Source: Sphingopyxis sp. DBS4
GTDB lineage: Bacteria; Pseudomonadota; Alphaproteobacteria; Sphingomonadales; Sphingomonadaceae
Direction: 5' to 3'
Length of the DNA stretch: 64,000 nt
Assembly: GCF_024628865.1 (NCBI RefSeq)
Contig: NZ_CP102384.1
Location: 4,289,001-4,353,000, forward strand
The translations under genes and the position numbers were made by a program. Under the pieces are notes generated by a model that was given only the letters and a program-made list of their open reading frames with translations, was not told the origin of the DNA and did no database searches. Below, in pieces: positions 4,213 to 64,000 of the stretch (position 1 is its first letter; the number at the start of each line of letters is the position of its first letter).

Positions 4213-4296
4213 GTGTCCCCGCGAAGGCGGGGATCCATCTCCGACCGGTTCAAACTGGCACCGAACGGAGATGGGCTCCCGCCTTCGCGGGCGCAC
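4213..4296. repeat. Intergenic palindromic repeat (CCCCGC-arm type)
   Basis: Two arms of about 30 nt (4213-4243 and 4266-4296) are imperfect reverse complements built around GTGTCCCCGCGAAGGCGGGG. Related copies occur at 19486-19579, 37447-37552 and, as a single hairpin, 61065-61084. It lies between convergent genes (the TPR gene and putA) and is followed on the plus side by CTTTTT at 4300-4305, so it could act as a terminator. The rest of 3997-4326 shows no convincing gene. Confidence 0.8.
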
Positions 4297-8012: not shown

Positions 8013-8090
8013 CGTCATCCCGGCGAAGGCCGGGATCTCGCCGGTACGTCATGGCGATAGGGGGAGATCCCGGCCTTCGCCGGGATGACG
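8013..8090. repeat. Intergenic palindromic repeat (GTCATCCCGG-arm type)
   Basis: Left arm 8013-8042 and right arm 8063-8090 are near-perfect reverse complements (core CGTCATCCCGGCGAAGGCCG). It lies between the convergent Lrp and acyl-CoA dehydrogenase genes. Related copies are at 25716-25792, 25828-25906 and 35843-35925, with a half copy at 33094-33109. Confidence 0.85.
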
Positions 8091-22823: not shown

Positions 22824-22932
22824 CCCCTCCCGCTTGCGGGAGGGGCAGCGAGAGTTGCGAACTTGTTCGCTACTCGCAGCGGGGAGGGCGGTGACAGGCC
22901 CTCCCCAAACCCCTCCCCGAAGGGAGGGGCTT
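22824..22932. repeat. CCCCTCCCGC-type palindromic repeat
   Basis: Starts with a perfect hairpin (CCCCTCCCGCTTGCGGGAGG and following bases, 22824-22845) and ends with another GC-rich hairpin near 22909-22929. It shares both hairpin and linker wording (GGCCCTCCCC) with the element at 63434-63535 inside coaBC. It lies between adaptor and pump genes of the RND operon. Confidence 0.8.
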
Positions 22933-25792: not shown

Positions 25793-25827
25793 AGAGGCTG
25801 AAAATCGCGCGCAGTATCTCTTACCTT

Positions 25828-25906
25828 CGTCATTCCCGCGAAAGCCGGAACCCAGAGTGGGGTCAGCCGACGCACGCTCTGGGTTCCGGCTTTCGCGGGA
25901 ATGACG
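25828..25906. repeat. Palindromic repeat (GTCATTCCCGCGAAAG type)
   Basis: Arms begin CGTCATTCCCGCGAAAGCCG and end in its reverse complement; the interior (AGAGTGGGGTCAGCCGACGC) recurs in the 35843-35925 copy. Only 36 bp from the previous repeat. Confidence 0.85.
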
Positions 25907-25951
25907 AAAGTTAGGAAGGGGCCGCTCCCCCACCCCAAAACCGACGTTTCG

Positions 25952-27406: not shown

Positions 27407-27488
27407 GTGATTTCCCCCGATAATCGATGGACCTTCGATGATAGCGGCGACGGGCCGAATTGGAAGGGATGAAGGGGGCTGTGTCGTT

Positions 27489-27630
27489 CCTCCCCGGCAC
27501 GGGGAGGGGGACCATGCGAAGCATGGTGGAGGGGCACCCTCGGTTTACGCATCGATCCAGAAAAGGCGCACCATGTCGCACCTGCCCCTCCACCACCTTC
27601 GGTGGTCCCCCTCCCCGTGCCGGGGAGGAG
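27489..27630. repeat. Large imperfect palindrome (CCTCCCCGGC type)
   Basis: Arms beginning CTCCCCGGCACGGGGAG (27490-27506) and ending in the reverse complement (27611-27628), with inner matches around CCATGCGAAGCATGG and ACCACCTTCGGTGGT. It fills most of the gap 27407-27653. Confidence 0.75.
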
Positions 27631-27653
27631 CGGCGACGGCCGCCGTCCGGCCG

Positions 27654-32150: not shown

Positions 32151-32312
32151 TCTCACACAAAGACACAAAGAGGGTCGCTTCATCATAAACCGTTCGCCCT
32201 GAGCTTGTCGAAGGGCCGTTCTTTTCTTTGACGCTGCAAGAAGAACGGTGCTTCGACAAGCTCAGCACGAACGGATTTGAAAGAGACATCCTCTTTGTGT
32301 CTTTGTGTGAGA
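32151..32312. repeat. 162-bp element with 23-bp perfect terminal inverted repeats
   Basis: The ends 32151-32173 and 32290-32312 are exact reverse complements (core CTCACACAAAGACACAAAGA). Inside lies a second inverted pair, 32190-32222 and 32241-32274, built on CCGTTCGCCCTGAGCTTGTC. It begins five bases after the tadA stop and ends 28 bp from the cobB stop, in a convergent gap. The inner module is related to the repeat at 35952-36040. Confidence 0.85.
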
Positions 32313-35790: not shown

Positions 35791-35842
35791 TCCGAGCTCC
35801 GAAACGGCCGCGTCTTTGGCGTGGAAAGCGGCCATTCCCCTC

Positions 35843-35925
35843 TTCGTCATTCCCGCGAAAGCGGGAACCCAGGGCGTGCGTCGGCTGACCCCACACTGGG
35901 TTCCCGCTTTGGCGGGAATGACGAA
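35843..35925. repeat. Palindromic repeat (GTCATTCCCGCGAAAG type)
   Basis: TTCGTCATTCCCGCGAAAGC at the left and its complement at the right end; the interior (GGCGTGCGTCGGCTGACCCC) matches in reverse the 25828 copy. Confidence 0.85.
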
Positions 35926-35951
35926 GGTAAGGGATGCGGAAATATGAATTT

Positions 35952-37446: not shown

Positions 37447-37552
37447 CGTGCCCCTGCGAAGGCAGGGGCCCATCACCGGCCTTCGGTTTCTTCCCAGCCG
37501 GTCGTTCAGAACGCGATCGCGGGTGATGGGCCCCTGCCTTCGCAGGGGCACG
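37447..37552. repeat. Palindromic repeat (CCCCTGCGAAGG type)
   Basis: CGTGCCCCTGCGAAGGCAGG at the left end and its complement at the right (ends 37552). Related to 4213 and 19486. It begins four bases after the M20 stop and could terminate it. Confidence 0.8.
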
Positions 37553-62211: not shown

Positions 62212-62733
62212 CTATTCGCCCGGCGGGCGCATCTTCATCGCCGCGAGCGAGCCGACATTCTCGGGGATGTTGTCGTCCTCGATGGCTTCGTCGCTGGCAA
62301 CCCCGGTCGAGCCGAAACCGCCCGTCCCGCGCGCGGTTTCGTCGAGCGTCTCGACCTCGGCGAAGGTGGCGCGCTGGACGGGGGCGGGGACGAGCTGCGC
62401 GATGCGGTCGCCGCGGGCGATCTCGAAATTATCGTCGGACAGGTTGGCAAGGATCACCTTCACCTCGCCGCGATAGTCGCTGTCGATCGTCCCCGGCGTG
62501 TTGAGGCAGGTGATGCCGTGCTTGAGTGCAAGGCCCGAACGCGGACGCACCTGCACTTCATAGCCGGGCGGGATCGCCATCGCGAAGCCGGTCGCGACCG
62601 CGTGGCGCGCGCCGGGGCGCAAGGTCAGCGTCTCGGCCGCGACGACGTCCATCCCAGCTGCGCCGTCGCTGGCATAGGCAGGCAGGGGCAGTCCGCCGCC
62701 GTTCGGCAGGCGCTGGATCGCGATTTCAATCAT
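62212..62733 (-). CDS. dut: dUTP pyrophosphatase with C-terminal extension
   Basis: Hydrolyses dUTP to dUMP. From the ATG at 62733 it has 173 residues; ATG 62763 would add 10. Trimeric dUTPase motifs are intact: [10 protein letters not shown] (motif I), [10 protein letters not shown] (II), [11 protein letters not shown] (III) and RGDRIAQLV (IV), and the P-loop-like [10 protein letters not shown] (V). About 30 residues follow motif V ([20 protein letters not shown]), where most enzymes end within a few residues. The start overlaps the coaBC stop by eight bases. Confidence 0.93.
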
Positions 62734-64000
62734 CGGAAGCGGGCAGGCGGGCGTCGAGCTCATCGGCGATCTTTTCCATCAATTTGCGGGCGACGGCATG
62801 TTTCGGCAGCCGGTCCCAACTGTCCACGCCAGCCTTGCTGACGATATGCACGCGGTTCGTTTCGCCGCCCATGGGATCGGCGGAGACATCATTGGCGACG
62901 ATCCAGTCGCAGCCCTTGCGCGCGAGCTTTGCCTCCGCGTGCGCGATCACATCGTTGGTCTCGGCGGCGAAGCCGATCAGCAGCGGCGGGCGCCGCGCGC
63001 TTTTCGCAAGGCCGGCAAGGATGTCGGGATTCTCGGCCAGTGCGAGCGGCGGGACCGCGCCGCTGCCGTCCTTCTTGATCTTCTGCGCCGCGGTGTCGGC
63101 GGCGCGCCAGTCGGCGACCGCCGCGACCATGATCGCGGCATCGACGGGCAGGCTAGCCTCGACCTCGGCCGCCATTTCGCGTGCGGTCTCGACATCGACT
63201 CGAATTACGCCCGGCGGGGTCGGCAGCGGCACCGGGCCGGCGATCAGCAGCACCTCGGCGCCTGCTTCGGCGGCGGCGGCGGCGATTGCGAAACCCTGCT
63301 TTCCGCTCGACCGGTTGGCGATGTAGCGCACCGGGTCGATCGGCTCGTGCGTGGGGCCGGCGGTGATCAGAATGCGGCGGCCGAACAGGGGGCGATGGTT
63401 CGCGGGCGCGAAGTCGGGCTGGCCGTCGATGTCCCCCTCCCGCTTGCGGGAGGGGTTAGGGGAGGGCGTGTCCGTGGGGTTGCCGCTTGCCAACGAAACA
63501 GGCCCTCCCCCGGCCCCTCCCGCAAGCGGGAGGGGAGAAGAAAGCGCCTTGTCGATCGCCTCCCTGATCGCTTGCGGTTCGGGAAGCCGTCCCGGCCCAT
63601 ATTCGCCGCATGCCATTTCGCCCTCGTCGGGTTCCATCACGGTGATGCCGTCCCCGCGCAGCGTCGCGACGTTGCGCCGCGTTGCCGGATGCAGCCACAT
63701 ACGGACGTTCATCGCGGGTGCCGCGAGCACCGGCTTGTCGGTCGCGAGCAGCAGCGTCGTTGCCAGATCGTCGGCGATGCCTGCCGTCATCTTCGCGAGC
63801 AGGTCGGCGGTCGCGGGCGCGACGACGACGAGATCGGCCTCGCGGCTGAGCTGGATATGTCCCATCTCGACCTCGTCTTTCAGGTCGAAAAGATTTGTAT
63901 AGACTTTATTCTCAGACAGGGCGGCGAGCGTCAGTGGGGTCACGAACTGTTCGCCCGCGCGCGTCAGCACGCAGCGCACGACATGCCCCGACTTGCGGAG
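62726..64000 (-). CDS. coaBC: CoaBC: phosphopantothenoylcysteine decarboxylase / synthetase (5' end outside the window)
   Basis: Bifunctional coenzyme A biosynthesis enzyme. The frame is open to the window edge, so the first dozens of residues are missing. The CoaC flavoprotein part has [29 protein letters not shown] and [17 protein letters not shown]. The CoaB ligase part begins [20 protein letters not shown] and ends near [12 protein letters not shown]. Between them an approximately 34-residue proline/glycine-rich insert is encoded by a palindromic repeat (63434-63535). The gene leads a dut-hesA-dsrE run. Confidence 0.92.
63434..63535. repeat. Palindromic repeat inserted in frame in coaBC
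   Basis: Identical hairpin-forming ends, 63434-63455 and 63514-63535 (CCCCTCCCGC cores), 102 bp in all, a multiple of three. It encodes a segment such as [17 protein letters not shown] and [16 protein letters not shown] in the linker between the two enzymatic domains. The same family is at 22824-22932. Confidence 0.8.

Follow-up and report, generated by a model that had tools for sequence, protein, structure and literature searches.

The coaBC gene of Sphingopyxis sp. DBS4 carries an in-frame 102-bp palindrome that belongs to a dispersed, two-ended repeat family, and in the same genome closely similar ends bracket a gene encoding a DUF559 protein. Our overall reading, to which we give a probability of roughly 0.6, is that a mobile palindrome settled in the coaBC linker and that such palindromes are spread by a DUF559 nuclease. 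The insertion of a short palindrome into the linker is close to certain, and we lean towards DUF559 as the mover, with mobilisation itself inferred. Positions below refer to the window, that is, the whole 64,000-nt stretch that was analysed, and the features are as follows.

62726..64000, minus strand: coaBC (Flavoprotein PF02441 and DFP PF04127), truncated by the window end; from the open frame and Pfam.
63434..63535, minus strand: palindromic element of family ia, 102 bp, in frame in coaBC; from the inverted repeat and the fold.
63498..63535, minus strand: LE-type arm, with a 22-nt terminal hairpin (63514-63535), then the tail CCGGGGGAGGGCCTGT (inward, minus strand).
63434..63471, plus strand: RE-type arm, with a 22-nt terminal hairpin (63434-63455), then the tail TTAGGGGAGGGCGTGT (inward, plus strand).
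22824..22929, no strand assigned: a further copy, not in coaBC, in which the left hairpin, CCCCTCCCGCTTGCGGGAGGGG, is unchanged and the inner part and the right end have diverged.
27485..27632, no strand assigned: inverted pair with ends similar to the repeats around L076, a further DUF559 gene in this genome (family iv); recognized by eye only.

The element is an inverted repeat of two 38-nt arms (63434-63471 and 63498-63535) that are 89% complementary and separated by a 26-nt spacer. In coding-strand order it runs from an LE-type end (CCCCTCCCGCTTGCGGGAGGGGCCGGGGGAGGGCCTGTT) through a variable core to an RE-type end. Folding of the coding-strand RNA gave a predicted MFE of -86.5 kcal/mol (z -9.5), and none of 200 shuffles was equally stable. 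The full coaBC frame spans 480 aa from stop to stop on the minus strand, and the element contributes 34 codons to it; PF02441 (residues 1-150) precedes them and PF04127 (residues 207-387) follows, numbered on the 424 residues encoded within the window. On the minus strand, the coaBC frame and a second frame are open throughout the element, and the third has an internal stop. The sequence-only reading had placed an in-frame palindrome of 102 bp, worth about 34 residues, at the linker between the decarboxylase and ligase domains, and these results bear it out at exactly 63434-63535. It had also called the ends identical in type to those of the repeat at 22824, which is only partly right because the left hairpin is shared exactly, whereas the inner part and the right end of 22824-22929 differ; judged by its sequence, that repeat looks closer to a sister subfamily than to the coaBC element. 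A known RNA was rejected as the identity of the palindrome, since none of the 37 Rfam matches at E ≤ 1 reached its gathering score; 36 of them are look-alikes of microRNA hairpins and the other is a bacterial sRNA.

Related copies are abundant in the genome. BLASTN recovered at least 107 stretches matching the element (40 of 70 candidates scored), and a covariance model built from 12 copies, with 150 of 4878 candidates scored, found at least 80 matches over the two strands, corresponding to 44 distinct places that include sister subfamilies and the 12 training copies; the family thus goes far beyond one or two copies. We then checked 51 places, solo hairpins included, for spanning frames. Two conserved genes were seen to hold a further full copy in frame: mfd and the gene for a 2-oxoacid dehydrogenase E2 (between the lipoyl and E3-binding domains). 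One partial copy runs into the start of a frame that we read provisionally as SufS-like. Because the remaining places were judged by codon-position GC alone, this census of coding copies is non-exhaustive and gives a lower bound.

Copies of family ia share one layout, in which a left end (LE) and a right end (RE), each a 22-nt hairpin with a tail of about 16 nt, are inverted around a short variable core. Typically one end is LE, with the tail (T/C)CGGGGGAGGGCCTGT, and the other RE, with the tail (T/C)TAGGGGAGGGC.TGT. We chose 35 pairs by eye from the matches listed, each with a half-unit on the plus strand and, no more than about 80 bp further on, one on the minus strand. Both ends could be labelled in 31 pairs, all of them LE plus RE, and four pairs were ambiguous. 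The ia copies of this genome have near-identical ends and unrelated short cores (roughly 14-28 bp). Since the core differs among copies with common ends, simple transposition of a unit does not account for the copies. We also considered the core as captured target DNA and rejected this: set against insert-free linkers and codon-shuffled controls, 15 cores taken from coding inserts included none that clearly stood out, the best resemblance (L273) being equalled or exceeded by 14 of 200 shuffles. By eye, no target-site duplication was evident at coaBC or mfd, and neither an empty/filled pair of closely related strains nor transposition itself was seen in a sample that holds one genome per species.

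The CoaBC linker was read in 30 Sphingopyxis genomes, our own included, with six more of the same genus left aside. In 23 of them there is no insert, and the linker is short (25-35 residues in the stretch compared). The expectation of insert-free linkers in relatives thus held, and most relatives lack the residues altogether. One of these 23 (L040, in G022) has a small CCCGCCGGCGGG palindrome that might be a worn remnant. A family-i palindrome is present in four of the 30, in two reading frames: in G000 and G030 the frame gives SPLPLAGG..., and in G014 and G028 it is shifted by one and gives SPSRLREG.... Another palindrome occupies the linker in G029 and G011, and G004 retains an apparent deletion remnant, SSPLPQEGD. 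On a CoaBC tree built with the linker removed, at least five changes between insert and empty are required, and the sister pair G030/G029 (support 100/100) carries unlike palindromes at the same place.

Other genes of the relatives tell of the same kind of insertion. Searches for mfd and E2 spanned 60 genomes, and 30 loci of each gene were read. In Mfd, seven loci carry family i (with ia or ib tails), seven have a palindrome of a different kind (VERSRDT...STSLDTNG type), and 16 are free of any. In E2, six carry family i, one the CCCTCTCCCCTTCAGGGG type and four a third type (RAELVEAPS...PSTSSGQT, the PEPVEGPS variant included), 18 have a native Ala/Pro linker, and one could not be parsed. Of eleven further places in relatives, four could be assigned to a clear gene: carA, with an in-frame copy in two frames (G016 and G011) between the CPSase and GATase domains; valS, with a copy in the anticodon-binding region (G011); and the gene of a DALR-domain protein, probably GlyS, with an in-frame copy in G016. 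As these placements indicate, linkers are common insertion places, yet loops within domains are also used. Several palindrome families occupy the same linkers repeatedly, in different frames. In the window itself, 32187-32277 holds a palindrome, CCGTTCGCCCTGAGCTTGTCGAAGG, and a similar family lies in frame in the E2 of four relatives (L279, L284, L289 and L292).

Two other accounts of the coaBC insert were weighed against these distributions. The peptide might have been selected for a function, as an exapted linker, rather than tolerated; inserts are kept at the same linkers in several lineages, and E2 copies have Ala/Pro-rich cores that resemble the native linker. We regard this as quite improbable, because 23 of the 30 CoaBCs read do without the insert, its frame and sequence vary between species, and G004 appears to have deleted it. 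The inserts could also be ancestral linkers undergoing loss rather than gain, since the five or more changes on the CoaBC tree alone give no direction. This is the least credible of the alternatives and very nearly dismissed: inserts at one place differ in palindrome family and frame, and the family found in coaBC is a repeat dispersed elsewhere in the genome. Insertion of a mobile palindrome is the reading we retain.

We turn to the candidate mover. Matches to Y1_Tnp (PF01797, RAYT-type) were absent from this genome and present in eight of the 36 genomes searched. The genome has four DUF559 genes, one of which, L074 (C1:2545441-2545758), lies between an LE end (TCGGGGGAGGGCCTGTTTGGA) and an RE-like end (TTGGGGGAGGGCATGTTTGGA). 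Its 3' codons extend into the right hairpin (CCCCTCCCATTTATGGGAGGGG), and its ends are closely similar, not identical, to those of the short copies in the same genome. We scored flanking inverted repeats at 113 Sphingopyxis DUF559 loci (33 from searches, plus a further 80 among the matches listed). The local score was at least 18 at 98 loci and at least 25 at 81, and the other 15 scored below 18. No control interval reached 18, either in the window (0/1000) or in 90 other loci (0/1800), and shifted windows inside DUF559 loci did so in two of 33 (L096 and L099, with 25 and 36). Median distances from the DUF559 domain match are 29 bp for the repeat before it and 7 bp for the one after it.

Different clades of DUF559 go with different palindromes. 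Eleven families were labelled by rules that use the flanks alone and were written after the flanks had been viewed, and on a protein tree of 109 of the 113 DUF559 rows (four short ones dropped) the labels require 16 changes, compared with 78 when shuffled. Most clades keep to a single conserved genomic place, so the match of clade and family partly reflects vertical linkage. At the yqeY-dnaG gap, clade ia occurs with ia repeats in 15 species and clade ib with ib repeats in eight (in seven rows a second clade-ib locus is present); gene and repeats change together at this site. Seen at L074 and L166, the gap presents as a module swap, with two DUF559-repeat modules at one site across species.

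Within the DUF559 domain, R9, E16, W20, Q36, D45, E56, G59, H62, D69 and R72 are invariant in 107 of 107 sequences, and D58 is kept in 106, a pattern as expected, at the level of sequence, of an active PD-(D/E)XK-type nuclease. DUF559 is presumably such a nuclease, and Vsr-like. A solved relative is 3hrl, an 'Endonuclease-Like Protein' (E 1.3e-26). In the available parts of PMC12907096, the PD-(D/E)XK-type assignment is made for a Caulobacter DUF559 relative, and VsrA, a DUF559 protein of Caulobacter, is predicted to be a mismatch-repair endonuclease. An anti-phage defence role was set aside, as PADLOC returned nothing for the DUF559 protein.

In three families, repeat numbers tend to be higher in genomes with a cognate gene. 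We compared half-unit or hairpin counts across 60 genomes with tests that ignore kinship. The median number of ia copies was 8 with the cognate gene vs 3 without it (p 4e-4, or 0.0066 after subtraction of the two flanking copies), that of ii copies 5 vs 0 (p 1.4e-4, or 0.011) and that of v copies 25 vs 1 (p 1.5e-5, or 4.4e-5). The eight genomes without a DUF559 match have no ii copies, 0-1 of ia and 0-6 of v. Kinship-paired tests gave no contrary pair (p 0.125-0.5), with too few pairs for significance. Some genomes are rich in copies with no cognate gene found among the DUF559 matches listed, which cover the stronger matches, so that a gene among weaker ones would be missed: G026 (32), G073 (25) and G014 (18) for ia, G076 (17) and G014 (11) for ii, and G029 (46), G031 (35) and G074 (21) for v.

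Bracketing extends beyond the genus. We took 20 of at least 38 near-full alphaproteobacterial DUF559 places outside Sphingopyxis, from 18 genomes. Twelve, in 11 genomes, were bracketed at a score of at least 18 by varied palindromes, and eight scored below 18; the maximum for shifted windows within the 20 loci was 13. The AT-rich DUF559 locus L315 (G155) is bracketed by a repeat of the AATCCCCCTTT...AAAGGGGG type that is very long and scores 65, hinting that bracketing is not restricted to GC-rich genomes. Bracketing as a universal trait of DUF559 is ruled out by E. coli K-12 ycjD, which is unbracketed (score 9, null maximum 12). At that locus (L406), a hairpin of the CCCTCTCCCCAGAGGGG / CCCTCTCCCC type lies on one side only, some 200 bp away from the 3' end of the gene.

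The main competitor to DUF559 as mover, which we consider possible though the weaker of the two readings, is that the palindromes are mobile and DUF559 is a mere passenger that settled between two of them (which could, for instance, have given it terminators), while some other enzyme or host repair is responsible for their movement. It would fit the single fixed place of most clades, the many copies in genomes where no cognate gene was found among the matches listed, and the mismatch-repair role predicted for the Caulobacter protein in the available parts of PMC12907096. A passenger would less readily explain why different clades are bracketed by different families (11 labelled), why gene and repeats change together at the yqeY-dnaG site, and why the LE/RE polarity is common to gene-bearing and short copies. 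On our reading the 102-bp segment is a non-autonomous two-ended palindromic mobile element, REPIN- or MITE-like in operation, that entered the coaBC linker and persists as about 34 extra residues. We attribute its survival there to a length divisible by three, to the absence of stops from two of its three frames on the coding strand, and to a tolerant linker. The DUF559 nuclease would recognize its own hairpin ends and nick or cut DNA, thereby spreading short copies, and would fill the role ascribed to RAYT (Y1) transposases for GTAG REPs. Most coding insertions would be removed by selection, leaving those in linkers and loops.

In-frame insertion of REP- or RPE-like palindromes is known in kind. 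The nearest report of coding palindromes in the literature searched was PMC3733652 (2013). Its available parts describe intragenic GTAG and CGTC REPs in many non-Rickettsia bacteria, S. alaskensis included, argue that a REP landing in a linker or loop may be neutral, name RAYT-REP units REPtrons, take the GTAG tag beside the hairpin as the mark of the RAYT-linked REP superfamily, and present CGTC repeats as not associated with transposase genes. The likening of the coaBC insert to Rickettsia palindromic elements therefore holds for its kind, a dispersed in-frame linker insert with insert-free relatives, and fails for novelty: a protein-tolerated repeat outside Rickettsiales is not new, because in-frame REPs there were reported in that 2013 paper. 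The sequence-only reading also overlooked the use of the same linkers by several palindrome families and the tie of the family to a DUF559 gene. Titles and abstract openings of the open-licence literature gave no report tying DUF559 to repeats, and as far as these searches show the DUF559-palindrome link is unreported within the literature searched.

The system resembles REPINs and REP-RAYT units in that two inverted REP palindromes form one dispersed unit, a fixed-place gene is bracketed by its cognate repeat, and gene and repeat pair family by family. It differs in that the gene encodes a DUF559 nuclease-type protein and not a Y1 HUH transposase, so that it falls outside RAYTs proper; the GTAG tag is absent, the tails being of TTAGGGGAGGGC or CCGGGGGAGGGC types, and the ia copies, unlike REPINs, have mutually unrelated cores. 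As with MITEs, short copies share closely similar ends with a gene-bearing one (L074) in the same genome. Rickettsia palindromic elements, whose features we draw partly from general knowledge and partly from the literature, are likewise inserted in frame in unrelated protein genes (here coaBC, mfd, E2, carA, valS and the DALR-domain gene); the likeness is one of insertion mode, and the host here is free-living and has a candidate mobiliser. Vsr and EDxHD homing endonucleases probably belong to the same broad nuclease superfamily as DUF559 (the match to 3r3p is weak, E 0.16); what sets DUF559 apart here is its bracketing by hairpin repeats of a dispersed kind. The alpha-proteobacterial CGTC REPs, as described in the available text of PMC3733652, come from the same host class and are found inside ORFs, including those of S. 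alaskensis; their unpaired CGTC end motif is absent from ia ends. Inverted pairs of the CGTCATTCCCGC / CGTCATCCCGGC type at 8013-8090, 25816-25914 and 35842-35926 of the window look, by sequence, like the CGTC REPs in that portion of the paper, and no motif of this type was found in the flanks of the 113 DUF559 loci. The window also holds long inverted pairs of other kinds at 37447-37552 and 4213-4296.

There is, in our estimate, an even chance that the widespread DUF559 proteins, for the most part unexplained, are the founders of a second, RAYT-independent class of REP mobilisers ('DUF559 REPtrons'), each clade spreading its own two-ended palindrome through alpha-proteobacteria, in-frame sites in essential proteins included. 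If true, DUF559 would be a missing mover for palindromic repeats without a transposase. Through the tie, a common nuclease family labelled 'unknown' would gain a function and be linked to repeats that reshape essential proteins, and its family-by-family character makes the mover of alpha-proteobacterial palindromic repeats a testable question.
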